Assembly: GCF_016864555.1 (NCBI RefSeq)
Contig: NZ_CP044012.1
Coordinates: 244,501-308,500, forward strand
DNA length: 64,000 nucleotides
Source: Sinorhizobium sp. BG8
GTDB lineage: Bacteria; Pseudomonadota; Alphaproteobacteria; Rhizobiales; Rhizobiaceae
Direction of reading: 5' to 3'
Positions 25,708 through 53,143 of this stretch are shown here, piece by piece; positions within the stretch are counted from its first letter, which is position 1; each line of letters begins with the position of its first letter. Both the position numbers and the translations under genes were made by a program. Under the pieces are notes generated by a model. That model was not told the origin of the DNA. It did not search any database and saw only the letters and a program-made list of their open reading frames with translations.

Positions 25708-26719
25708 TCAAGTCTCGCTCGATGTGGATCGGTGATTGGTCTCCGTAGTCAACGCTCCACGCAGATCAGTAGTCCCGCGGCCGATATTCGCGCCTGCGAC
25801 GATGGTCACGGCATAGGCCGCGAGGCGCCGGTATCCCAGCGACGAGTGCGACCAGATTATATTGTTGACGCCGACACATTCGGAAATGGCGCTACGGGCG
25901 TAGCCAAGACCGAAGAAGAGACTCTCGTTCAGCAGTTCGTCACACATGCAGCTATTGAAGGACTCTACATAGCCGTTTTGCATCGGCTTTCCCTGTGCGA
26001 TGTAATGCCCCTCGACCTTGTGATACTTCGACCAGACAAGGATCGCGTTCGATGTGAACTGCGTGCCGTGGTCGGAGACGATCACGCCGGGTTTGCCGCG
26101 CCGATCGAGGAGCGCCATCAGTTTCCGTCCGACGCGGCGGCCTGAGATCGAAGCATCAGAGATTGCTGCAAGGCATTCGCGCGTCACGTCATCGACGATG
26201 CTGAGCACCCGAAACCTCATTCAGCCGCCGAACTGGTCGTGGACGAAATCCAATGACCAGCGCGCATTGGCCTTCGCTTCGGCCAGGATTGGCGCACGCC
26301 CGCCGACAGCACGCCGCCGAGCTTTCCGCTTGCAGACCGACAGCCCCTCCTCGCGGTGCGGCCGGTAGATGCGGTTGACGCCGGACAGCTCGAGCAGGAT
26401 GAACAGCCGCCGGAAGCCAAAGCGCCGTCGCCCGTGGGCGAAATCGATCAGCCTGGCCCGCAGATCAGCCGTCGAGAAGCCCATGATGACCTTCAGATGT
26501 CCGACGGCTGCACACTTGGTGGAGGCCCTACCATTCTTTTGTAGGAATCTCGCGGAGCGCAGCTACGTCCGGCATCTGCCCGGCCAGTAGCTTCCTCACC
26601 TTGGCATTCTCCTCATGAAGGCGACACAGTCGGTGGCGACTTCGGCGGAGCTCAGGCGACGGATTGCGCACCTCTCGCCGTGCATCCCAGCGGCGCTTTT
26701 GACAGGATCTGACGGACAA
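25708..26719 (-). mobile_element. Decayed IS3-family insertion sequence
   Basis: Minus-strand remnants of both transposase genes. Near 26540-26610, ENAKVRKLLAGQMPDVAALRE is the end of OrfA (leucine zipper part; quoted up to 20 residues elsewhere as NAKVRKLLAGQMPDVAALR). Then OrfB: RRRFGFRRLFILLELSGV, VNRIYRPHREEGLSV and ARWSLDFVHDQF, an in-frame TGA at 26221-26223, then RFRVLSIVDDVTRECLAA, VIVSDHGTQFTSNAI and QNGYVESFNSCMCDELLNE, the DDE integrase core (D, D, E all present). The OrfB N-terminus is deleted and the stop splits the core, so it cannot transpose. The usual C-terminal HSSLGY motif is kept. No clean terminal repeats were found. Confidence 0.8.
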
Positions 26720-27316: not shown

Positions 27317-27991
27317 ATGACGGCCGACGAGTTTCCCCTCCCCTCGCAGCCTCGCCCGGCCGTTCTGCACGGCTACTTTCGCAGCTCCGCATCGTGGCGC
27401 GTGCGCATAGCGCTCCGCCTGAAAGGGCTTTCGGTCCATCACGTCGCACACCACCTTCGCAAGGGCGAGCAGCGGTCGGCGGCCTACCTCCGCCTTAATC
27501 CCCAGGGCCTGGTGCCCACACTCGAACTCGACGACGGAACCGTGCTCACGCAGTCTCTGGCAATCATTCATTGGCTTGACGACGCCTATCCCGATCCCCC
27601 TCTCCGGCCGAAAGACGTCCTCGAACGGGCAAAGGTAGAGGCATTCTCGCTGGTTCTCGCGGCCGATACCCACCCTGTCCAGAATCTTGCGGTGCTCGCG
27701 CGCCTGCGCGCCATGGGGATCGCCGAACCTCAAGTCCAGAAGTGGGCCGCAGAGGTCAATGCCGCAGGCCTTGCCGCCTGCGAGGCGCTCCTGCGCGACA
27801 CGGAAGGTCCTTTCTGCTTCGGCGACAGTCCTGGTGTTGCGGATATCTGCCTCGTCCCCCAGCTCGGCAATGCACGCCGTTTCGGCGTGACGGTCGAGCA
27901 GTTTCCACGCTTGCTTGCCGCTGAGGCGGCATGTGCCGGGCTCGCCGCCTTCATTGAGGCTGTGCCGTCGCGCCAGGTCGACGCGGAATGA
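27317..27991 (+). CDS. maiA: Maleylacetoacetate isomerase (zeta-class GST)
   Basis: A 224-residue zeta-class glutathione transferase. The N-terminal thioredoxin-like domain has the SSASWRVRIAL motif (catalytic Ser/Cys region, here SSASW, residues ~22-26), NPQGLVPTLELDDG and TQSLAIIHWLDD; the C-terminal helical domain has FCFGDSPGVADICLVPQL. It isomerises maleylacetoacetate to fumarylacetoacetate using glutathione in homogentisate breakdown. GAAGGAGGAAG precedes ATG 27317. hmgA and fahA, the other two enzymes of this pathway, are 9-12 kb downstream; a MarR gene follows 67 bases later on the same strand. The usual signature is SSxxWRVR with cysteine at the third position; alanine here is a variation seen elsewhere but worth noting. 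Confidence 0.9.
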   Translation: MTADEFPLPSQPRPAVLHGYFRSSASWRVRIALRLKGLSVHHVAHHLRKGEQRSAAYLRLNPQGLVPTLELDDGTVLTQSLAIIHWLDDAYPDPPLRPKDVLERAKVEAFSLVLAADTHPVQNLAVLARLRAMGIAEPQVQKWAAEVNAAGLAACEALLRDTEGPFCFGDSPGVADICLVPQLGNARRFGVTVEQFPRLLAAEAACAGLAAFIEAVPSRQVDAE

Positions 27992-28058: not shown

Positions 28059-28514
28059 ATGAAGACCATCTACGAAATGCCGGGACACCTCATTCGCCGC
28101 GCGCACCAGATCAGCACGGCCATCTTCGCGGAAGAATGCATGGCGTTCGACGTAACGGCCATCCAATACTCGGCTCTTTGCGCCATAGGCATGCACGAGT
28201 CGCTCGATGCGACACGGCTCTCGCGGTTGATTGCGTTCGACAGGGCGACAATTGGCGGCGTCCTGGAGCGCATGGAGGCGAAGGGCTGGATCGAGCGCGT
28301 ATCAAGCCCCAAAGACCGGCGCGTGAAGCTTCTGCGATTGACGCCCGAGGGAGAGAACCTCGTTGAGCGTGTCGAAAGTGCCGTGCAGCGGGCCCAGAAG
28401 CGGCTGCTCGAACCTCTTGCAGCAGAGGATCGCAAGGAATTCCTGCGACTGCTCAGCCAGCTTGCGCAGGTGCACAACGACATCACGTCGGCGCCGATCC
28501 AACCCATAGACTGA
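28059..28514 (+). CDS. MarR-family regulator downstream of maiA
   Basis: A 151-residue MarR protein with the winged HTH in the middle (AIQYSALCAIG, LSRLIAFDRATIGGVLERME, then wing SSPKDRRVKLLRLTPEG) and dimerising helices at both ends. MarR repressors leave DNA on binding small aromatic or other effectors. It follows maiA by 67 bases and is probably in its transcript, which makes the homogentisate route a likely target. ATG 28059 has only a weak AGGA site; the frame opens upstream but overlaps maiA. A second MarR gene faces hmgA at 36298. Confidence 0.88.
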   Translation: MKTIYEMPGHLIRRAHQISTAIFAEECMAFDVTAIQYSALCAIGMHESLDATRLSRLIAFDRATIGGVLERMEAKGWIERVSSPKDRRVKLLRLTPEGENLVERVESAVQRAQKRLLEPLAAEDRKEFLRLLSQLAQVHNDITSAPIQPID

Positions 28515-28640
28515 GAAAAATCAATGCCATACAGATAGTTTGGGGCTCCGAGAGACCATTCTGTAGCGTGCTACGGCTACCGGTTCTCGTTCCCACGACG
28601 ATTCCGGGAGACAGCCTGAGGGGCGTGACCGCCAGACAGC

Positions 28641-28754
28641 AAAAAGCCCGGTGCGGGAGGAGGTGCACCGGGCTTTGATATGTGACTGACAACTGGGAGG
28701 AGGAGTGTCGTCAGTCCGACCGAAGCGATCCGGGAGGAGGTGAACCGCTTCGAT
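28641..28754 (-). ncRNA. alphar14/NfeR1-like trans-acting sRNA with three anti-SD loops
   Basis: Three successive hairpins on the minus strand each show CCTCCTCCC in the loop. Hairpin 1 (28752-28721) has stem CGAAGCG/CGCTTCG. Hairpin 2 (28715-28685) has arms ACTGACGAC / GTTGTCAGT. Hairpin 3 (28674-28645) has stem AGCCCGGTGC / GCACCGGGCT followed by TTTTT, an intrinsic terminator. The loops are complementary to Shine-Dalgarno sites. This is the plan of the rhizobial alphar14 family (NfeR1 in Sinorhizobium), which represses many transport mRNAs by pairing at ribosome sites. A TTGATT-17-TATCTT promoter precedes it. Length is ~114 nt, as expected for the family. It lies alone between the MarR and lactate dehydrogenase genes. 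Confidence 0.78.
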
Positions 28755-28760
28755 GAGTTC

Positions 28761-28789
28761 AAGATAATGCTGCAATGCAGCGAAATCAA
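28761..28789 (-). promoter_or_regulatory. sigma70-type promoter of the sRNA
   Basis: On the minus strand TTGATT (28789-28784) and TATCTT (28766-28761) are 17 bases apart, placing the start near 28754, two bases before the first hairpin. Confidence 0.55.
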
Positions 28790-28875
28790 TCCCAATCATG
28801 CTGCATTGCCGCAGGTGCGACAATTTGGCAGTCATTTGCCCCGGACGCGAGCATTTGCAAGCGCCAAAGCGCTCG

Positions 28876-30018
28876 CTACGCTCCCTGGTGCAGGTTCCGG
28901 CGCGACAGGTTGCGCACGTCGCGTTCGCCACACAGGGCCATCGTGATGTCGAGCTCCTTGCGGATGATTTCGAGTGCCCTGGTAACGCCCGCCTTGCCCC
29001 CTGCCCCCAGGCCATAGAGGAACGGACGGCCGATATAGGTGCCCTTGGCGCCGTAGCAGAGCGCCTTCAGCACGTCCTGGCCGGAGCGGATGCCACCATC
29101 GAGATGCACCTCCATATGGCCTCCGACGGCGTCGACGATGCGCGGCAACATGCTGATCGAGGACGGTGCGCCATCAAGCTGGCGACCGCCGTGGTTGGAA
29201 ACGATGATGGCGTCCGCCCCCGTCGAAACAGCCATGCGGGCGTCCTCCTCGTCGAGAATGCCCTTCAAAATGAGCTTGCCGCCCCAACGCTCCTTGATCC
29301 AGGCCACGTCTTTCCAGGAAAGCTGCGGATCGAACTGCTCGGAAGTCCAGACGGAGAGCGAAGACAGGTCCGTCACACTCTTCGCGTGGCCGACGATGTT
29401 GCGAAAAGTACGCCGCTGGGTACCCATCATCTGCATGCACCAGAGCGGACGCGTCGCCATTTGCCAGATGTGCTTCGGCGTAAACTTTGGCGGCGCCGAC
29501 AGGCCGTTGCGGATGTCCTTGTGGCGTTGCCCGAGGATCTGCAGATCAAGCGTCAGGACGAGTGCCGAGCATTTCGCCGCCTTTGCGCGATCGATGAGAT
29601 TGAGCACGAAATCGCGGTCCTGCATGACGTAGAGCTGGAACCAGAACGGCTTCTTCAATACCGAAGCGACGTCCTCGATCGAGCAGATGCTCATGGTGGA
29701 AAGCGTGAACGGAACGCCGAATTCCTCGGCCGCCTGCGCCGCCAGCATCTCGCCGTCGGCATGCTGCATGCCGGTTAGCCCGGTCGGAGAAAGGGCAACC
29801 GGCATGGAGACCTTCTCGCCGATCATCTCGCTTGCGAGCGAGCGGTTCGTCATGTCCACCAGAACCCGCTGGCGAAGCTTGATCTTGTGGAAGTCCTCCT
29901 CGTTCGCACGGTAGGTGCCCTCCGTCCAGGCGCCGGAATCGGCATAGTCGAAGAACATCTTCGGTACACGTCTTCTCGCCCGCTCCTTGAGATCGGCGAT
30001 CGTCAGCTCGTCTTTCAC
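28876..30018 (-). CDS. lldD: FMN-dependent L-lactate dehydrogenase / alpha-hydroxyacid oxidase
   Basis: A 380-residue TIM-barrel flavoenzyme of the lactate dehydrogenase/glycolate oxidase family. Landmarks: RVPKMFFDYADSGAWTEGTY at the N-terminus, PVALSPTGLTGMQHADGE, QLYVMQDRDF, the catalytic histidine in VSNHGGRQLDGA, and FMN phosphate binding in LDGGIRSGQDVLKAL and GAKGTYIGRPFLYGL. It oxidises L-lactate (or a similar 2-hydroxyacid) to the keto acid, passing electrons to the quinone pool. The start is GTG 30018 with AGGAG upstream; a longer open frame reaches 30453 but overlaps the fuconate dehydratase. Its place directly after that dehydratase fits the L-lactate released in the non-phosphorylating fucose route. 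Lactate specificity is inference. Confidence 0.85.
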   Translation of the reverse strand: MKDELTIADLKERARRRVPKMFFDYADSGAWTEGTYRANEEDFHKIKLRQRVLVDMTNRSLASEMIGEKVSMPVALSPTGLTGMQHADGEMLAAQAAEEFGVPFTLSTMSICSIEDVASVLKKPFWFQLYVMQDRDFVLNLIDRAKAAKCSALVLTLDLQILGQRHKDIRNGLSAPPKFTPKHIWQMATRPLWCMQMMGTQRRTFRNIVGHAKSVTDLSSLSVWTSEQFDPQLSWKDVAWIKERWGGKLILKGILDEEDARMAVSTGADAIIVSNHGGRQLDGAPSSISMLPRIVDAVGGHMEVHLDGGIRSGQDVLKALCYGAKGTYIGRPFLYGLGAGGKAGVTRALEIIRKELDITMALCGERDVRNLSRRNLHQGA

Positions 30019-32442: not shown

Positions 32443-33489
32443 CTACTTCGCCGACGTGTAGAACTTCGCCATATCGGGCAAGCGCTTCACACGGATTTTC
32501 GAGGCCTTGCCGGCAGAACGGAACGCTTCGAAGCGCTCCTTGCAGACCTCGGCCATGCGTGCGACCGCGGGCTTCAGGTACGTGCGGGGGTCGAAGTTGT
32601 CCGGCTTGTCGGTGAAGTTGCGACGGATCTCACCGGTCATTGCGAGACGGAGATCCGTGTCGATATTGACCTTGCGCACTCCGAGCGGAATGGCCTTCTG
32701 AATCTCGGCCACCGGCACGCCCCAGGTCTTCTTCATCTGCCCGCCATAGGCGTTGAAAAGCTCCTGGAGATCCTGCGGGACCGACGAAGACCCGTGCATG
32801 ACGAGGTGGGTATTCGGCAGCTTTTTGTTGATCTTGGCGATCGTCTCTATCGACAGGATTTCGCCATCCGGCTCACGCGTGAACTTGTAGGCCCCGTGGC
32901 TGGTTCCAATGGCAACGGCGAGGGCATCCACGCCGGTCCTCGTCACGAAATCGAGCGCCTGGTCCGGATCGGTCAGAAGCTCCTCGCGCGACAGCTTGCC
33001 TTCGAAGCCGTGGCCGTCCTCTTTCTCGCCGGCACCCGTCTCGAGGTTTCCGAGACAGCCAAGCTCGCCCTCTACCGAAACGCCGGCCGCATGTGCGATC
33101 TTGACGACCTCGGCCGTGACCCCGACGTTGTATTCATAGTCGGCAACCGTCTTCCCGTCGGGCAGCAACGAGCCGTCCATCATGACCGACGTGAAGCCGT
33201 TGGTGATGGCCGAGATGCACGTCGAGGGCTGGTCGCCGTGATCGAGGTGAATGCAGACGGGGATGTGCGGATACTCTTCCGCAGCGCCGAGAATGAGGTG
33301 GCGGAGAAACGCATCGCCGGCATACGCGCGGGCGCCGCGGCTGGCCTGCAGGATCACCGGCGAGTCGGTCGCATCGGCCGCACGCATCACTGCCTGTATG
33401 TATTCCAGATTGTTCACGTTGAACGCGGGCAGCGCATAATCGTTTTCCGCAGCATGATCGAGCAATTGCCTCATGGTGATCAATGCCAT
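32443..33489 (-). CDS. fba: Class II fructose-bisphosphate aldolase (Calvin-cycle subtype)
   Basis: A 348-residue zinc-dependent aldolase. Landmarks are [20 protein letters not shown], zinc ligand motif HLDHGD near 81-85, [12 protein letters not shown], the [12 protein letters not shown] segment with a zinc-binding glutamate, [13 protein letters not shown] and [10 protein letters not shown] (histidine ligands), and [11 protein letters not shown]. This long subtype occurs in the Calvin-cycle and proteobacterial clade. It cleaves fructose-1,6-bisphosphate to two triose phosphates or runs in reverse. Its neighbours are not glycolytic: repAB lies upstream on the same strand after 293 bases, and the fucose-like genes downstream are convergent. 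Identity is firm. Confidence 0.92.
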
Positions 33490-33782: not shown

Positions 33783-34814
33783 TCAGTGCCCGTCCTGCTC
33801 GAAGCGGGCGACGAGTTCGGGCAGCTTTGCGGCAAGCCAGTCCGCGAGCCCCTTAACATTACGATCATCGATTGCGAATCGCGTGACCGTTCCATTGCGC
33901 TCGATGCTGACTGCGTCGCGGCCGCTTGATGCCTTGACCACGCTCTTTGCGGCCGGAACCTTCTCCTTGCTTTCAAGGACAGCAAGCAACATGGCGAAGC
34001 GGCTGTCGCTATCCGCGGCCTGCCACTTCTCGGACGACATCAGTCCGTTGGCTGCGGAGCTACGCGCGGCCGGCAGTTTGCGGTCGGTAAAATGCGTCGC
34101 CAGCTTTTCCCACTTGGGTCGTCCCGTTTTTGGCGCGGGGCCGATCCTGCGAACGAGGTCTTGCGGCAGGCTGCTTGCGAGCGACGTCAGGATCGAGATG
34201 TAGGCCAGCCCCCGGTCCTCGCCGCGCCCGAGAGCCGCTGCGATCGTCTGGCGGTCGAAGCTGCGCTCCTTCAGTTCCTGCGCGAACAGCGCCTGCTCGA
34301 TGAACGAGAGGTCCTTCCGCTCCGTGTTCTCCTTGCCCTGCGCGACCACGAGAGCATCGTCGGTGAGGGTGCGGACGATCGCCTTGACCGGGCGGGCAAG
34401 GCGGTCTGCCGCACGCCAACGGCGATGGCCATAGGCAATCTGGTAGCGATCGGCAGCCGTGGGGTGCGGCCGCACGAGGATAGGGACTTGCTGCCCATGC
34501 TCACGCATGCTCGACACGAGATCCTCGAAACGGGGATCGCTCTCGTCATCCATGCGATCCTTGACGAAGGATGGGTCGATCCGTTCGGCAGGTATGTCGA
34601 TGATCGCCTCGGCATTGCTGAGCTGCTCGCGCAGCCGCACGTTCTCGTCTTCGATCGCCGAAAACGAATCCTGCATCGAGCGAACGGCACCGGACGAAAC
34701 CCGGCGCCCGGTTTGCGAAAGAGGCGAGGGCGCTACCGACTGGGCAAGCTCGGCGGGGTTGATGCCGCCGAACATGGCTTTCATTTTCTTGGAGCGGTCG
34801 CTGGCATTGTTCAC
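33783..34814 (-). CDS. repB: RepB, ParB-like partition protein
   Basis: A 343-residue RepB of the repABC type. The N-terminal leader (SDRSKKMKAMFGGINPAELA) is typical of plasmid RepB. The ParB/sulfiredoxin-like domain follows (about 85-180: LVSSMREHGQQVPILVRPH, AYGHRRWRAADRLARPVKAI, then ENTERKDLSFIEQALFAQEL), with the HTH (FDRQTIAAALGRGEDRGLAY) and a C-terminal dimerisation part ending LADWLAAKLPELVARF. It binds parS and acts with RepA to segregate the replicon. It overlaps repA by four bases (ATGA). RepC, the initiator that always follows repB in a repABC operon, is absent: the next gene on this strand is an aldolase. Confidence 0.9.
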   Translation of the reverse strand: MNNASDRSKKMKAMFGGINPAELAQSVAPSPLSQTGRRVSSGAVRSMQDSFSAIEDENVRLREQLSNAEAIIDIPAERIDPSFVKDRMDDESDPRFEDLVSSMREHGQQVPILVRPHPTAADRYQIAYGHRRWRAADRLARPVKAIVRTLTDDALVVAQGKENTERKDLSFIEQALFAQELKERSFDRQTIAAALGRGEDRGLAYISILTSLASSLPQDLVRRIGPAPKTGRPKWEKLATHFTDRKLPAARSSAANGLMSSEKWQAADSDSRFAMLLAVLESKEKVPAAKSVVKASSGRDAVSIERNGTVTRFAIDDRNVKGLADWLAAKLPELVARFEQDGH

Positions 34815-36028
34815 GGGCGTCCCCAGACTTTTCTGATGTGTTGGAAGATCTCGGCGTTCACGGCATCCACCGATTCGAGCGCACGGTTCAGAGTATCACG
34901 CCCGATGCTGCCTCGGGTTATCTCGTAGAGGCTTTTCTTTTCGAGCCCCGCACTGGCGATTGCGGTGGTGTCCACGACCGAAGCCGCCAGCACGTCCTCG
35001 CCGAAAAGCGAGCGCAGCAGCGCGACCACGTTGACCTGGGGCACGTCATGCGGATTGTGCCGGGTCAGCACGTAGCGGATGAAGTCGTGCTCGAGTTCGC
35101 CGCCGGCCTCCTCGATCACATCGAGAATGTCACTGGTCATGGCCAGGAACTGGTTCATGGAAGCCACATCCAGCATGGCCGGATGGACGGTGATGAGCAG
35201 GCCCGTCGCCGCATATAGCGCCCCAAGCGTCAGGTAACCGAGCTGAGGGGGCGCGTCGATCAGGACCACATCGTAGTCTTCGTCGACTTCGGCGAGTACC
35301 GTCTTCAGTCGCCGGAAGAACATGCCGTCGCCCCTCGACAGGCCCTTTGCAATCGCCTGAGGCGTTTCGTGCTCGTACTCCATGAGCTCGAGATTGCCGG
35401 GCAAGATATGGACACCGTCGAAATAGGTTTCCCGGATCACCGAGCGCAGAGGCAGCCGCTCCGCGTCGTCGTAGCGGATTGCAGCATAGAGCGTCTGGTT
35501 CGAGGCAACATCGAACTCCGGCTGATAGCCGAACATGGTGGAGAGGGATGCCTGGGGGTCAAGGTCGATGGCGAGCACGCGCAGGCCCTGAAGGGCAAGA
35601 TAGTGCGCCAGATGCACCGTGGTCGTCGTCTTGGCCGAGCCGCCCTTGAAGTTGGCGATCGCGAGAACCTGCAGCTTGTCTTCGGGGCGCCGACGGGGCA
35701 TGAACTGCAGGGCGTCCGACGGACGGCGGTTGGCAAGATAGGACCGGATCTGGTTCAGCTGGGAAAGCGTGTAGAACCGTCGACCATTGTCCTGGCGATC
35801 GGGGATAGCTGCCTCGCCATCGAGAGACATCTGCCTCAGGGTCGACTCCGCCACTCCAAGCAGTGCCGCCGCATCGCGCGACGAGAAGGTCTTGAGCGAC
35901 TTCATTGCCTCCGGCGGATACATCTGCTGGCGCAGGTGCTGCAATTGTGCCGAGAGCAGCTGGGAATGGCGCATGATCTTGGCGCCTGAGGCCTCGGCGA
36001 GCGATTGGGTTCTCAAAGTATTTTCCAT
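34811..36028 (-). CDS. repA: RepA, ParA-like partition ATPase
   Basis: A 405-residue RepA. The first ~110 residues hold a DNA-binding HTH (TFSSRDAAALLGVAESTLRQ) and a plasmid-type linker. The ATPase core starts at about 127 with the deviant Walker A FKGGSAKTTTTVHLAH, then DLDPQASLSTMFG and the Walker B DVVLIDAPPQLGYLTLGALY. RepA represses the rep operon and drives segregation by ATP-dependent movement on the nucleoid. Length and sequence type match repABC RepA, not chromosomal ParA (about 260 aa). Translation is coupled to repB. The 269 bases upstream should carry the operon promoter. Identity firm; the missing repC is the odd feature. Confidence 0.92.
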   Translation of the reverse strand: MENTLRTQSLAEASGAKIMRHSQLLSAQLQHLRQQMYPPEAMKSLKTFSSRDAAALLGVAESTLRQMSLDGEAAIPDRQDNGRRFYTLSQLNQIRSYLANRRPSDALQFMPRRRPEDKLQVLAIANFKGGSAKTTTTVHLAHYLALQGLRVLAIDLDPQASLSTMFGYQPEFDVASNQTLYAAIRYDDAERLPLRSVIRETYFDGVHILPGNLELMEYEHETPQAIAKGLSRGDGMFFRRLKTVLAEVDEDYDVVLIDAPPQLGYLTLGALYAATGLLITVHPAMLDVASMNQFLAMTSDILDVIEEAGGELEHDFIRYVLTRHNPHDVPQVNVVALLRSLFGEDVLAASVVDTTAIASAGLEKKSLYEITRGSIGRDTLNRALESVDAVNAEIFQHIRKVWGRP

Positions 36029-36862: not shown

Positions 36863-38223
36863 ATGCTGGACAGGACCGAAGACGCAACAGCGGAAAGCGC
36901 GGCGAGCACCAACAGCGTAAAATACATGCCGGGTTTCGGTAACGACTTCGAGACAGAGTCGCTACCGGGCGCCTTGCCGCAAGGCCAGAACAGTCCACAG
37001 AAATGCAACTACGGCCTCTATGCAGAACAGCTTTCGGGATCGCCCTTCACGGCCCCCGCGGCACGAACGAACGCTCCTGGCTCTACAGGATCCGTCCGAG
37101 CGTTCGCCATACCCGTCGTTTCTCCAACGCATCCTGTCCCTATTGGAAGTCGGCGCCCTGCATCGACGATCATTCGCTCCCCCTCGGCCAGTTGCGCTGG
37201 GGACCGTTGCCTGAGCCGACGGAGGAGTTGACCTTCCCCGAAGGCATTCGCACGATGACGGCCGCAGGGGACGTCCTGACGCAGGTCGGCATGGCAGCAC
37301 ACGCCTATATCTTCAACGCCGACATGGTGGACGACTACTTCTTCAACGCCGACGGAGAGCTGTTGATCGTGCCTCAGATGGGCAGCCTGCGCATCTTCAC
37401 GGAGATGGGCATCATGGATATCGAGCCATCGGAGATCTGCCTGATCCCGCGCGGCATGATGTTCAAGGTTTCCCGTCAGGGGGAGGGGGAGAGCTGGCGG
37501 GGCTATGTCTGCGAGAACTACGGCGCCAAGTTCACCATGCCCGATCGCGGCCCGATCGGAGCCAATTGCCTCGCCAATCCGCGTGATTTCAAGACGCCGG
37601 TCGCAGCCTTCGAAGACAAGGAGACCCCCTGCCGCGTGCACGTAAAATGGTGCGGCAAGTTCTACATCACCGAGATCGGCCATTCGCCGCTTGATGTGGT
37701 GGCCTGGCACGGCAATTACGTGCCGTTCAAGTATGACCTGCGCACGTTCTCGCCGGTCGGGGCGATCCTGTTCGACCATCCGGACCCGTCGATCTTCACG
37801 GTTCTGACAGCCCCCACGGAGGAAGCTGGGACGGCCAACGTCGATTTCGTCATCTTCCCGCCGCGCTGGCTCGTTGCAGAGCACACGTTCCGTCCCCCCT
37901 GGTATCACCGCAACATCATGAGTGAGTTCATGGGACTGATACACGGCCAGTACGATGCAAAGGAGGAGGGCTTCGTCCCAGGCGCCATGAGCCTGCATAA
38001 CATGATGCTACCCCACGGGCCGGACACGATGGGCTTCGAGAAAGCCTCGAACAGCGAGTTGAAACCGGTGAAGCTCGATCACACCATGGCGTTCATGTTC
38101 GAGACCCGCTACCCGCAGCAGCTTACGAGGTTTGCCGCCGAGCTGGAGACGCTCCAGGAGAATTACCTCGAATGCTGGGACGGCCTGGAGCGCAAGTTCG
38201 ACGGCACGCCGGGCATCAAGTGA
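36863..38223 (+). pseudogene. hmgA: Homogentisate 1,2-dioxygenase, one frameshift
   Basis: Two overlapping frames give a full-length dioxygenase (about 453 residues). The first, from ATG 36863 (GAGGAGGT upstream), has [12 protein letters not shown] and [14 protein letters not shown]. After a C5 run at 37053-37057 the match continues one frame over: [49 protein letters not shown], and the iron site in [11 protein letters not shown] with histidines in PPWYHRN. Restoring one C would rejoin the frames exactly. The enzyme opens homogentisate to maleylacetoacetate using Fe2+ and O2. maiA and fahA are present and intact in the window, so loss of this step alone would be strange. Sequencing error is the better explanation; real inactivation is possible. 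Confidence 0.9.
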
Positions 38224-38934: not shown

Positions 38935-39951
38935 ATGAAACTCGCAACACTCAAGGACAGTACCCGCGATGGCAAGTTGGTCGTTGTATCGAAGGACCTC
39001 ACGCGCTGCTCGGAGGTCGGCCATATTGCCCGCACGCTGCAGGCTGCGCTCGACGACTGGGCGCACGTCGGACCGCGGCTCGCCCGCGTGGCCGAGGGGA
39101 TGGAGACCGGCTCGCAACCGACAATGCGCTTCCATGAACACGAGACGTCTTCACCCCTTCCGCGCGCATTCCAGTGGGCGGACGGTTCGGCCTATGTCAA
39201 CCACGTCGAGCTGGTGCGCCGTGCGCGCAATGCCGAGATGCCTGCGAGCTTCTGGACAGATCCGTTGATGTACCAGGGAGGCTCGGACAGTTTCCTTGGC
39301 CCGCGCGATCCAATCGTCATGGCCGACGAGGCCTATGGCATCGACATGGAAGGGGAGGTCGCCGTCATCGTCGACGACGTGCCGATGGGTACCGGCGCAG
39401 AGGAGGCGCGCGCAGCGATCCGGCTCATCATGCTCGTCAACGACGTCTCGCTGCGCGGCCTCATACCCGCAGAGCTTGCGAAGGGTTTCGGTTTCTTCCA
39501 GTCAAAACCCTCTTCCGCTTTCTCACCCGTGGCGGTCTCCCCGGACGAACTCGGTGACGCCTGGGATGGCGGCAAGCTGCACCTCCCGCTGCTTGTCAGC
39601 CTCAATGCAAAGCCCTTCGGAAAGGCCGACACCGGAATAGACATGACCTTCGATTTCGGGCAGCTCATCGCCCATGCGGCCAAGACCCGTCCGCTCGTCG
39701 CAGGCTCGATCATCGGTTCCGGCACCGTCTCCAACAAGCTTGATGGCGGCCCCGGCAAGCCGATTTCCGCCGGCGGCGTCGGCTACTCCTGCATAGCCGA
39801 GGTCCGGACCATAGAAACGATCGAGACGGGAGCGCCGAAAACGCCATTCATGAAGTTCGGCGACACCGTGCGCATCGAGATGAAGGACAAGACCGGCCAC
39901 TCGATCTTCGGCGCCATAGAGCAGACCCTGAAGCCATATGAGCGAGAGTGA
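38935..39951 (+). CDS. fahA: Fumarylacetoacetate hydrolase
   Basis: A 338-residue FAH-fold enzyme. Typical blocks are [20 protein letters not shown], the metal-binding acidic residues in [19 protein letters not shown] (two glutamates and an aspartate pattern), [30 protein letters not shown] and [18 protein letters not shown]. It hydrolyses fumarylacetoacetate to fumarate and acetoacetate, the last step of tyrosine breakdown. AGGGAGGG precedes ATG 38935. hmgA lies upstream on the same strand with a reverse gene between, and maiA is 11 kb before. FAH-fold enzymes also hydrolyse 2,4-diketo-3-deoxy-fuconate, so a role in the fucose route cannot be fully excluded, but the context next to hmgA favours this call. 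Confidence 0.87.
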
Positions 39952-48320: not shown

Positions 48321-49052
48321 CTACCAGTCAGAACCGACACCCTTTCGCCATTCCTGCAACTCGGCTTCGGCCCGCTCCAACGCGCTGTAGTTCAACAGCT
48401 TGCGAAGGAACGCCACGGTTACGGCACGGGCACGCAAATTGAAGCGGCCGTCGTCCTCCTCGCCTGCGCTCTGGTAGACGTCCAGCTTGTCGTAGAGTTG
48501 CTGGAGCCGGTTCTGCACGCTGCGCAGCGAGAGGCTCCGGCGCTTCGCGATGGCTCGGTCCGTGAGCCCGAGCGCGATGTCCACGAGGATCTCGTATTCG
48601 CTGTCGGTAAAGCCGTTGGCCTGCCCGAGGCTCTTTTGCTGCAAGCCGCGCACTTCGCGGTCAATAACGCACTGGCTCTCGACGAAGATGCTGCGCAAGG
48701 CCAGCTTCAACCGCTCGTCCGATGCCGACTTCAGCACATACCCATAGGCCGCACCATCAGGTACGATGCGCGAGACGCCCCGCACATAGGCCTCGTCGGA
48801 ATAGTTCGACCAGAAGAGGATCCGGGTCTCCGGCCGTTCCTTCCAGATGGTGCGCGCGGCCTCGATGCCGTTGCGTACGTTCATCTGCAGGTCCATTACG
48901 ATGTGCGCGGATTTGTGGTCGCGCGCGAGCCTCTCCCCCGTCGTGCCGTTGTCGGCCTCGATCACGGTGTCGCATTCGGGAAGCGCCGCACACACCGCCT
49001 CGTGCAGGTACGAACGATGGAGCGGATCGTCCTCGACGATCAAGACCTTCAT
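48321..49052 (-). CDS. NarL/LuxR-type response regulator
   Basis: A 243-residue regulator. The receiver (about 1-125) has VEDDPLH, the phospho-acceptor in IVMDLQMNVRNG, serine in WSNYSDEA where threonine is usual, and lysine in YVLKSAS. The LuxR HTH (about 160-215) has FTDSEYEILVDIALGLTDRA and SLRSVQNRLQQLYDKL. ATG 49052 overlaps the kinase stop (ATGA), so the pair is translationally coupled. With the GAF-HisKA_3 kinase it forms a complete two-component system placed between the GMC dehydrogenase and the sugar importer. It may control either. Long upstream open frame rejected. Confidence 0.9.
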   Translation of the reverse strand: MKVLIVEDDPLHRSYLHEAVCAALPECDTVIEADNGTTGERLARDHKSAHIVMDLQMNVRNGIEAARTIWKERPETRILFWSNYSDEAYVRGVSRIVPDGAAYGYVLKSASDERLKLALRSIFVESQCVIDREVRGLQQKSLGQANGFTDSEYEILVDIALGLTDRAIAKRRSLSLRSVQNRLQQLYDKLDVYQSAGEEDDGRFNLRARAVTVAFLRKLLNYSALERAEAELQEWRKGVGSDW

Positions 49053-50341
49053 TGACGTGCCTCCATAGCGCCTCGTTCTCCCTCGGTCGGGCCTGACCTG
49101 CGCGGCAGGGTCAGCGATACGCTCACCCTCGTGCCTACGTTGCATTGCCCCGGACCGACTGCAAACCGCGCAGAGATCAAGCGTGCCCGGGTGCGCATGT
49201 TGTCGATCCCCCCGCCGATCCGGCCCTCCGGCCCCTTCAAACCTTCGCCGTCATCGCAGATGTCGATGGCGATCCGGCTATCCTCGACCCGCAAGTGAAC
49301 GATGATCGACGTGGCCTGCGCATGCCGCACGGCATTGTTGATCGCCTCCTGGGCAATCCGGAACAGTGCAATGCTGACGGTCTGTTCGAGCGTCTCGAGC
49401 GCGCCCTCGCTATCGTCGGTCAAGGTCCACTGGATCGGCAGGCCACTCTCACGGATCGACCGGTCGAGATGATTTTCCAGTGCCTGGGCGAGACCGAAGA
49501 GCTGAAGGATGGAGGGTTTGGCTTCCTCGATGATCTGGCGCAGGTCCTGCATACAGTGCTGCAGGCCGCGGGATAGCGATTCCAGGGCTTCGGCCGTGAT
49601 GTCGCCCGTCTTGGAGAGACGCTCGACGCGACGCGCCATGCGGGTCAGGTCGGCAAGCGTCTGGTCGTGCAGATCCATGCCGATGCGCTGGCGCTCCTGT
49701 TCGAGCGCCTCGGTGAGCTTCAACGCCCCCTGCCGGAGCCCTTCCTCGCGAGCCCGTGCCTCTGCTTCCACGATCGCGGAGCGCTGCGCCTGCTCGGCGG
49801 CTCTCAGGGCGAAGAAATAGGGGGAAAGCAGATCGGCGATCGCCCGCGCCTTCGCGACGTCCTCCATTGTGTAGAGACCCGGCGTCTGCGACGAACAACT
49901 GAGAGCCGCAATGATGTCACCCTGAACCTTCATGGGGACGTGCAGCCGGCTTTTCAGCGACTGTTCGACAATCGGCCGCTTGAATGCGCCTTCGAAGTGA
50001 AAGCGTTCGTCGGTGGTCGCGTCGTCGGTCAATAGAAAGTCGACGTCGCCCCACAGAAGCGTCCGGATCGGACTGTTGCTGACCGGCGCGGCCGAAAGAC
50101 CACCCCATGCCGTCTCCATGCCGGTCTCGTAGGCAGTGTGATATTTCCCATCCACCATCACGACGCAGACGTCGAGATGGTCGTGCGGTACGATGTGGGC
50201 GACCTCCGCCGCAACTGCCCGGATCGCCGAGCGGAAATCCGGCTGGCCGGCAAGCAGTCTCGAAATGCCGAGATAGTGGTCGAGCAGCGCCGGCGAAGCG
50301 ATCTGAAGCATGTCCGCAGTTCCTCCCCGCGTGTGACGCAT
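49049..50341 (-). CDS. GAF-domain histidine kinase (HisKA_3 type)
   Basis: A 430-residue cytoplasmic kinase. A GAF-like sensor domain lies at about 30-190 (HIVPHDHLDVCVVMVDGKYH, SRLHVPMKVQGDIIAALSC). A coiled-coil linker rich in Ala, Glu and Arg leads to the HisKA_3 phospho-site in MDLHDQTLADLTRMARRVE, histidine at about 240. The ATPase domain has RIAQEAINNAVRHAQATSI and DDGEGLKGPEGRIGGGIDNM. This is the NarX/UhpB-type catalytic core without membrane segments. ATG 50341 is preceded by GAGGAGG; the longer open frame is not supported. Divergent from the sugar-binding protein gene over 248 bases, which supports control of the importer. Ligand unknown. Confidence 0.88.
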   Translation of the reverse strand: MRHTRGGTADMLQIASPALLDHYLGISRLLAGQPDFRSAIRAVAAEVAHIVPHDHLDVCVVMVDGKYHTAYETGMETAWGGLSAAPVSNSPIRTLLWGDVDFLLTDDATTDERFHFEGAFKRPIVEQSLKSRLHVPMKVQGDIIAALSCSSQTPGLYTMEDVAKARAIADLLSPYFFALRAAEQAQRSAIVEAEARAREEGLRQGALKLTEALEQERQRIGMDLHDQTLADLTRMARRVERLSKTGDITAEALESLSRGLQHCMQDLRQIIEEAKPSILQLFGLAQALENHLDRSIRESGLPIQWTLTDDSEGALETLEQTVSIALFRIAQEAINNAVRHAQATSIIVHLRVEDSRIAIDICDDGEGLKGPEGRIGGGIDNMRTRARLISARFAVGPGQCNVGTRVSVSLTLPRRSGPTEGERGAMEARQ

Positions 50342-50589
50342 GGACTCCTCCTCAATGAGTCCGCGCGCGACAGTCAGTAAGCGCCCTCCCGCTCCCGGCG
50401 TCTTGCATAAACCCGCACCATCGCCGGTAGAATTGGCAAACGGCTTGCCGCAAAGCTCCTGTACAGGCACAACCAACTGTTCCATGCTGCCCTTACTGAG
50501 AGGAGGATGCTCAGTGCAAGAACAATTTTCATCCCGCCTCCGGCGCAGATGAAGCGATCCGCCTGGAGCGGATCTTGAGGGAGAGAGAC

Positions 50590-51679: not shown

Positions 51680-53143
51680 ATGACTGGTGGCTCCCGCAAG
51701 GCGGTGATCGAAGTCGAAGGCGTGAAGGTGAGCTTCGGCGCGGTCAAGGCGCTCGACGGTGTAACGTTGCGCATCATGCCCGGCGAATGCGTCGGGCTCG
51801 TCGGGCACAACGGCGCCGGAAAATCGACCATCGTCAGCGTCATCAACGGCGGATTGACGCCGCACGACGGCAGCGTTTCAAGCGATGGCGAACCTCTACC
51901 CCACTTCGGCATCAAGATGGCACGCGCGCGCGGCGTGCGCTGCGTCTTCCAGGAACTGTCGCTCTGTCCGAACCTCACCATCATCGAGAATGCGCGCATC
52001 ACCCACCGCAACCTCGGCGGTTTCGGCTGGCGGGGCCGGGCGGCGAAGATCATCCAGGCAAGCCTCGACGCGATCTTCCCCGGCCACGGCATCGATTGCG
52101 GGCTGACGATCGGCGACCTCTCCATATCGGAGCGTCAGATGGTCGAGATCGCCATGGCGTTCTCCGATGCGGGCGTCGCACCTCGCCTGGTCATCCTTGA
52201 CGAGCCGACCTCCTCACTCGACGCAAGCCTCGCCAACCAGCTTCTCGCCCATGTGCGCGGTTTCATCGCCCGAGGCGGTTCCGTTGTTTTCATCTCGCAC
52301 ATTCTCGGCGAGATTCTCTCGACTGCCGATCGCATCGTCGTGATGAAGGACGGCCGCATCGTCAGCGACAAGGCGGCCGCCGATTTCACCACGCGCAGTC
52401 TCGTGGAGGCCATGGGCAGTGTGGTGAAGGAGGAAAGAGGGGGCCGCACCGAACGTGATTTTCGCACCGTGCCTGCTGTGCTGGAGCTGCCCGCCGCCGA
52501 ACCCGGCGCCCTTTCCTTTGCCGCGCGCAAGGGCGAGATCATCGGGCTCGCGGGTCTCGGCGGTCACGGTCAGACGGAGATGTTGCTGAAGCTTCACGCG
52601 ATGAAGAGCAGCAACTGGCTGCCTACCCGTGACCCGACGGTGACCTTCGTTGCGGGAGACCGACGCCTGAACGGCGTGTTCGAACTCTGGAGCATCCTAA
52701 AGAACCTGACGATCGCCTCGCTCGGCGACCATTCCCGGCGCGGTGTCGTCGCAGAAAAATCCGAACGGGAAACCTCCGCGAATTGGAAGAGCCGGATCGA
52801 GATCCGCACGCAGAACATGGACAACCGCATCCTGTCACTCTCCGGCGGCAACCAGCAGAAAGTGCTCTTCGCCCGTGCCCTTTCCACCCATGCACCCGTC
52901 GTCCTGATGGACGACCCCATGCGTGGCGTCGACATCGGCACGAAGCAGGAGGTCTACGCCATTCTCCGGGAGGAGGCAGAGCAGGGCCGCACCTTCGTCT
53001 GGTACTCTACGGAAATGGAAGAAATCTGCCTCTGCGACCGAGTCTATGTCTTCCGTGACGGCGCCATCGCCGCTGAACTAACCGGGGACGAGATCAACGA
53101 GGCAAACATTCTCGCGGCCTCCTTCCATGGAGAGGCTGCATGA
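51680..53143 (+). CDS. Sugar ABC transporter ATPase, double NBD
   Basis: A 487-residue protein with two fused nucleotide-binding domains. NBD1 (about 8-240) has Walker A GHNGAGKST, signature LSISERQMVEIA (serine-rich variant), Walker B LVILDEPTSS and ISH. NBD2 (about 255-487) keeps the signature LSGGNQQKVLFARAL and VLMDDPMRGVDIGTKQEV but has no Walker A (GLGGHGQTE), as is usual for this CUT2 family. It powers import by ATP hydrolysis. ATG 51680 overlaps no gene; its stop overlaps the permease start (ATGA), implying coupling. Somewhat shorter than typical 500-residue members. Confidence 0.9.
   Translation: MTGGSRKAVIEVEGVKVSFGAVKALDGVTLRIMPGECVGLVGHNGAGKSTIVSVINGGLTPHDGSVSSDGEPLPHFGIKMARARGVRCVFQELSLCPNLTIIENARITHRNLGGFGWRGRAAKIIQASLDAIFPGHGIDCGLTIGDLSISERQMVEIAMAFSDAGVAPRLVILDEPTSSLDASLANQLLAHVRGFIARGGSVVFISHILGEILSTADRIVVMKDGRIVSDKAAADFTTRSLVEAMGSVVKEERGGRTERDFRTVPAVLELPAAEPGALSFAARKGEIIGLAGLGGHGQTEMLLKLHAMKSSNWLPTRDPTVTFVAGDRRLNGVFELWSILKNLTIASLGDHSRRGVVAEKSERETSANWKSRIEIRTQNMDNRILSLSGGNQQKVLFARALSTHAPVVLMDDPMRGVDIGTKQEVYAILREEAEQGRTFVWYSTEMEEICLCDRVYVFRDGAIAAELTGDEINEANILAASFHGEAA

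Follow-up and report, generated by a model that had tools for sequence, protein, structure and literature searches.

The minus strand of the 64 kb window, which is the whole stretch of Sinorhizobium sp. BG8 DNA analysed here, carries a complete alphar14 sRNA gene. It is a true member of this family, also known as the cuckoo RNAs. The promoter sequence points to a product that is probably a PHB-derepressed anti-Shine-Dalgarno (anti-SD) sRNA, the representative of a stored-carbon-responsive branch of alphar14. The RNA family itself is already known; the PhaR-type promoter branch would be new. The gene, its promoter and its neighbours are arranged as follows.

28639..28758, minus strand: alphar14 sRNA gene (Rfam span), RF02344 at 112.2 bits, model positions 1-123 of 123
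~28754 to 28640, minus strand: putative transcript, with ends predicted from the promoter and terminator
28719..28754, minus strand: hairpin 1, loop motif CCUCCUCCC at 28732-28740 (fold, coordinates)
28684..28716, minus strand: hairpin 2, loop motif at 28695-28703 (fold, coordinates)
28643..28676, minus strand: hairpin 3, doubling as intrinsic terminator; its loop has the motif at 28655-28663 and a T run follows (fold and sequence)
28761..28766, minus strand: putative -10 element TATCTT, spacer 17 nt (sequence)
28784..28789, minus strand: putative -35 element TTGATT (sequence)
28765..28785, minus strand: putative PhaR-type operator, proximal, TTTCGCTGCATTGCAGCATTA, which occupies the spacer between -35 and -10; 21.2 bits (p 5e-6 per position)
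28796..28816, minus strand: putative PhaR-type operator, distal, ACCTGCGGCAATGCAGCATGA, upstream of the -35 element; 11.3 bits, p 2.5e-5 per position
28876..30018, minus strand: LldD-like gene of the FMN-dependent L-lactate dehydrogenase family, an upstream neighbour outside the sRNA unit
28059..28514, plus strand: convergent neighbour, MarR-family regulator, start approximate

Membership of alphar14 had been proposed in a preliminary description of this DNA, with a covariance search as the check. The search was run and upheld the assignment, RF02344 (ar14) exceeding its cut-off of 58.8 bits as the sole Rfam family to do so in the window. The score for RF02791 (CcsR1) was 42.2 bits, under its cut-off of 65.3. 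The minus strand of the sRNA gene has three copies of the motif CCTCCTCCC (28655-28663, 28695-28703 and 28732-28740). The one further copy in the window has its plus-strand complement at 52968, within coding sequence, and no copy was found on the plus strand of the window. A triple of the motif within 110 nt was absent from 200 simulated windows (order-3 Markov, 400 strands). The minus strand of the sRNA folds at -54.1 kcal/mol (z -8.1, 0/200 shuffles as good) into three hairpins, with all three CCUCCUCCC motifs unpaired; the plus-strand fold is weaker (z -2.9, 1/200 shuffles as good). Motif positions and fold thus confirm that the same anti-SD motif is exposed in three loops, that of the terminator included, as had been described. 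Across 22 family sequences, 23 of the 26 consensus pairs have changed on both sides and the loop motif is invariant. The earlier reading of the loops as anti-SD seeds is supported, this function being established for the relative NfeR1 (PMC10746234).

The promoter letters TTGATT-17-TATCTT, also given in the preliminary description, are confirmed in the sequence and resemble a sigma-70 promoter. A simple consensus promoter scan found 0 promoters, so this pair went unlisted. Hairpin 3 is missing from the output of the terminator scan, whose rule accepts no loops outside 3-8; the entry given in its stead is the promoter palindrome (28781-28769). The proximal operator is the top PhaR-matrix match in the 64 kb window, the next best elsewhere reaching 13.4 bits. 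The distal operator, at a spacing of 31 bp from the proximal one, is weak and ranks sixth in the window. When the 100-nt promoter was resampled 20,000 times under a Markov model, the best score was reached in 3 cases and two such sites were present in 1.

PhaR (AniA) is a PHB-sensing repressor, and its S. meliloti motif WNWDDNYGCRNYGCRNHHWNW, printed with repeat numbers, was published in 2025 (PMC12542648). As in the window, the phaP1 and phaP2 promoters contain two PhaR sites flanking the -35 element; these promoters drive granule proteins, not an sRNA, and their sites are 18 and 28 bp apart by the coordinates of Table 3, compared with 31 bp here (PMC12542648). PhaR is encoded in the window's genome (PF07879 at C1:437526-437705), and both phasin genes of that genome have paired PhaR sites (14.2/13.3 and 19.0/27.9 bits).

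It has been shown by others that PHB titrates PhaR and that the NfeR1 loops block translation starts. Under the proposed mechanism, when little PHB is stored, free PhaR on the operators of the window gene would block RNA polymerase. With carbon in excess, PHB granules would form and titrate PhaR away, and the sRNA would be made. Through its three redundant loops the RNA would base-pair with ribosome binding sites of the GGAGGA type and keep translation from starting, and the silenced mRNAs would probably be those of nutrient-uptake and regulatory genes, by analogy with NfeR1. Carbon storage would in that case be linked directly to the translation control of uptake genes.

Twenty-five sites from S. 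meliloti loci with positive gel shifts (PMC12542648 Table 3) went into the PhaR matrix. The rpoE8/acyP rows, two of the four exoH sites, the rhaR row (which is rhaD on the other strand) and untested or unbound loci were omitted from it. Its 1e-4 threshold, set on 400 kb of the window's own genome, is 8.3 bits. The matrix is not specific to PhaR targets: it matches 13 of 30 upstreams of the sister family ar15 (AbcR), in many cases at LsrB/VtlR-type boxes, and also the upstream regions of 21 of 268 ordinary genes. Many of the ar15 matches are explained by the published Brucella VtlR motif, CAATGCAGCCATGCA (PMC12595884), which resembles the PhaR motif and has a nine-letter stretch in common with the window palindrome. 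Due to this resemblance a second matrix (LsrB) was built on an alignment of 25 ar15 promoters (of the 30 ar15 loci, 26 were entered and one of these was skipped for want of an anchor), and all ar14 copies were scored with both. 'LsrB-type' is used here by analogy with the LsrB/VtlR sites in the literature. A first PhaR tally, in which 52 of 78 ar14 copies matched within 330 nt, is not taken as evidence, since the ar15 control showed part of it to be LsrB/VtlR boxes; only sites in the spacer slot are used. As the PhaR idea arose after the window had been seen, only other loci count as tests.

One such locus coincides with a published binding site. The 21-mer AGATGCTGCACTGCAGCATTA, at pSymB 1605799-1605819, lies on a fragment efficiently bound by His6-PhaR and is assigned to rpoE8/acyP (PMC12542648 Table 3). 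It is identical to the 21-mer in the -35/-10 spacer of an ar14 gene of S. meliloti 4H41 (L151), which is adjoined by an ECF sigma gene on one side and an acylphosphatase gene on the other. L151 shares with the window gene the sRNA layout and the PhaR palindrome in the spacer, and differs from it in its single operator and its flanking genes, to which the published table assigns the site (PMC12542648). In that table the acyP protein is not regulated and rpoE8 was not detected, so the support at this site is in vitro binding; an acyP promoter fusion was also constructed (PMC12542648). If the proposed control holds, this PhaR site, for which no regulated protein was found, would gain its transcript. 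The Table 3 entry for SMc02855/SMc02856, whose binding is listed as not evaluated, likewise has the same letters as the box upstream of another ar14 copy of S. meliloti (L184), where an LsrB-type box overlaps and the case is ambiguous (PMC12542648). The terms sRNA, NfeR1 and cuckoo are absent from the main text of that paper, which does discuss the small RNA MmgR (PMC12542648). Among the papers listed in a literature search that took in few subscription papers, none was found to report PhaR control of ar14.

A PhaR site in the core-promoter spacer was found at eleven other ar14 loci, six of which also have a second site. In the first set, of 78 distinct ar14 copies, the spacer slot is filled in five: the window gene, L144, L151, L153 and L157. 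LsrB-type matches are present in 68 of the 78. The ten copies without one are the window gene, L144, L151, L153 and six array copies that have no PhaR match either. L157 combines its spacer PhaR site with a marginal LsrB-type match (4.8, threshold 4.6). L153 and L157 are not independent tests, because they were fetched by their palindrome. In this pattern search the exact palindrome stood before CCTCCTCC in 6 of 394 family genomes, and the reversed-pattern control gave 2 of 394. Four of the palindrome matches are promoters of complete three-loop ar14 genes of the window kind, namely the window gene, L153, L156 and L157; L156 is the same locus as L151, which had entered the set through the search of named genomes, and was counted once. 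The palindrome match L155 is not ar14. L154 is a degenerate copy of ar14 in which anti-SD loops are fewer and the terminator is motif-free; its promoter has a similar spacer palindrome.

The second set was chosen blind to the promoter. A search of 384 genomes gave 112 with a match, from which 30 loci were taken solely for the resemblance of their sRNA to that of the window. Twenty-four of these were new and usable, four were already in the first set and two (L245 and L248) gave no usable row. A spacer-slot PhaR site is present in 7 of the 24 (L241, L254, L255, L258, L262, L263 and L268, at 13.8 to 25.3 bits) and absent in 17. In five of the seven a second PhaR site lies 29-31 bp further upstream, matching the window arrangement. 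The seven span three genera, with L262, L263 and L268 in one, L241, L255 and L258 in another and one locus in the third; as the loci are related, they represent fewer than seven events. An LsrB-type match of at least 8 bits is found in 19 of the 24, including L255 (9.8) and L263 (10.6) of the seven. L241 is the closest homologue by sRNA (87% identity) and has both PhaR sites at the positions seen in the window. The letters of these sites differ, and therefore the motif has been kept, not just the sequence.

Read side by side, the ar14 promoters fall into several kinds. Second tandem copies have the LsrB-type box and solo copies a related box; further kinds are the arrays behind genes presumed by eye to be DUF1127, and the window kind with its palindrome between -35 and -10. 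On balance, these comparisons tip slightly towards a split of alphar14 by promoter into an LsrB-activated and a PhaR-repressed branch, with PHB releasing anti-SD RNAs that would throttle uptake across the Rhizobiaceae. NfeR1, the studied member of the family, answers to nitrogen and redox cues, whereas the window branch would answer to stored carbon. This would amount to a feedback from carbon storage to translation, and the two signals would meet at copies that have sites of both kinds. According to a 2020 review, only one of six copies of the NfeR1 locus is reliably visible on Northern blots under the conditions tried (PMC7143759). If its core promoter contained a PhaR operator, the timing of such a silent ar14 copy would be accounted for: it would be made as PHB accumulates.

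The main alternatives concern the regulator that acts at this promoter. NfeR1 of S. meliloti (Smr14C2, RF02344) resembles the window sRNA in its three hairpins, its anti-SD motif in each loop and its length of ~115 nt. It is activated by LsrB through TGCA-N6-GCAT and repressed by NtrC through TGC-N11-GCA (PMC10746234). It is quite improbable that the window copy is simply the NfeR1 of its genome, under this same control and responding to nitrogen and redox stress. The two belong to the same sRNA family, and the NtrC pattern does match at 28853-28837. However, this match has a GC-rich middle as opposed to the published AT-rich one and carries little weight, because the pattern is present in 15 of 76 ar14 upstreams. 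If kinship with NfeR1 is taken to mean the same control, this is not supported at the promoter: no LsrB-type box was found at the 1e-4 threshold within 340 nt upstream of the window sRNA, which has two putative PhaR-type operators. This genome's NfeR1-like copy is a separate gene of the larger contig (C1:2792880-2793002), with an LsrB-type box (13.9 bits) about where that of NfeR1 is described. The window copy could also be an ordinary ar14 gene whose palindromes serve another regulator, or in which the site of an LsrB/VtlR-type factor has moved into the spacer. The letters shared between CAATGCAGCCATGCA and the window palindrome would fit this, as would the PhaR matrix matching LsrB/VtlR boxes too, yet it is judged unlikely. 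A position between -35 and -10 fits a repressor better than a LysR-type activator, which counts against an LsrB/VtlR-type factor. The LsrB matrix has no match in the window promoter, the sites of the window class are near-symmetrical and several are phasin-like (L263, L268), and in vitro binding of PhaR has been reported for an S. meliloti fragment that contains one (PMC12542648).

The least probable explanation, given very little credence, is transcription from the lactate dehydrogenase promoter, with the sRNA as a piece of that gene's 3′ untranslated region. The sRNA does lie on the same strand, ~120 nt past the stop codon, and the terminator scan shows nothing between the two except the palindrome itself. 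Against this, the sRNA has its own promoter elements and putative operators, and the same core recurs elsewhere in other genomes. No ar14 gene was found in the flanks of 80 LldD loci (the best 80 of 585 relatives, with flanks under 3 kb in some). The LldD protein is 92-94% identical to those of Rhizobium rhizolycopersici and two Mycoplana species, which places the host near Mycoplana within the Rhizobiaceae, and the 80 loci include three from or near Mycoplana at 92-94% identity, likewise without ar14. A conserved gene neighbourhood was dropped as an argument for the same reason, with ar14 beside none of the 80. Two overlapping CCTCCTCC pairs, at L067 and L088, proved not to be ar14.

NfeR1 has three redundant anti-SD loops and silences ntrB and transport mRNAs (PMC10746234, PMC7143759, PMC8844928). 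Many transporter mRNAs within the window had been expected to be strong targets of the window sRNA, which was not borne out, as one of six transporter genes has a fair match. The loop-to-start-region energies of the six are -14.0, -9.0, -6.0, -3.2, -3.0 and -1.7 kcal/mol; start codons were set by rule and single energy values can be wrong. A rough ORF rule (at least 110 aa) gave 53 window genes, all of which were scanned against Pfam, with seven having no match. The best candidate in the window is no transporter: it is a histidine-kinase-like gene at 49049-50485 (TTGAGGAGGAGTCCATG), at -18.6 kcal/mol. For ntrB, the NfeR1 target, the energies with the three loops are -14.4 to -17.0 kcal/mol, and GGAGGCGG stands 30 nt before its start codon. 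The sole full copy of GGGAGGAGG outside the sRNA, at 52968, was rejected as a target, as it lies within an ABC ATPase gene and not in a start region. Across 400 kb sampled from the genome, GGGAGGAGG was counted twice over both strands, one copy having a start-like position. Full nine-base matches are thus scarce, and most pairing must rely on shorter ones.

MmgR of S. meliloti presumably belongs to a different sRNA family from ar14. It is an sRNA gene tied to PHB and repressed by PhaR/AniA, as proposed for the window gene, and has one PhaR site, listed near its start point (PMC12542648). SmelA075 and SmelA099 resemble the window sRNA in having three and four hairpins with CCUCCUCCC loops; these versions were described in 2011 (PMC3927594 section 2.7), and four-loop ar14 copies occur among the present matches too. 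They are copies other than that of the window, and the likeness is one of the RNA. SmelA075 has been seen on a Northern blot, most strongly after heat (PMC2873474). The CcsR1-4 RNAs of Rhodobacter (RF02791) also have hairpins with CCUCCUCCC loops; they derive from a DUF1127 operon with an RpoHI/RpoHII promoter (PMC10253847), whereas the upstream neighbour of the window sRNA is LldD-like.

The family is widespread among relatives of the window's genome, with ar14 matches in 45 of 61 genomes at E 0.001 (its own and 60 relatives), 37 of them above the cut-off. All 14 named genomes searched have ar14, with 2 to 8 matches each. The genome itself consists of two contigs of 4.53 and 1.14 Mb, the window being on the smaller. 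Of its three ar14 genes, two form a tandem pair on the larger contig and the third is that of the window. The first tandem copy, at C1:2793181-2793305 (L004, to 2793500), has an LsrB-type box and a phasin-like PhaR site 14 nt later. Its leader is seemingly structured and, by eye, similar between genera (L008, L122-L124 and L126-L129). First tandem copies of this type may join both signals; together with the copies behind presumed DUF1127 genes, they are ambiguous.

Arrays of ar14 were observed at L026, L027, L028, L032 and L034; they consist of five or six consecutive loops or of several copies placed head to tail. Several of these lie directly behind a short ORF which by eye resembles DUF1127. 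At L012, L015, L016, L019, L020, L022, L026, L029, L032 and L033 a PhaR-like site is followed 22 bp on by an LsrB/VtlR-type box. The pair is placed ~250-320 nt before the first loop, ahead of the presumed DUF1127 gene.

Other features of the window were recorded in passing. An integrase core (rve) open frame at 25708-26220 on the minus strand is likely an insertion-sequence remnant. RepB-like (33783-36028) and RepA-like (32443-33489) partition genes, both on the minus strand, have a fructose-bisphosphate-aldolase-family gene where repC would be expected, and within the window the repAB pair is apparently without an adjoining repC. The maiA, homogentisate dioxygenase and fumarylacetoacetase genes (27317-27991, 37003-38223 and 38935-39951) are parts of one tyrosine breakdown route; maiA is ~10 kb from the other two, and the sRNA lies between.
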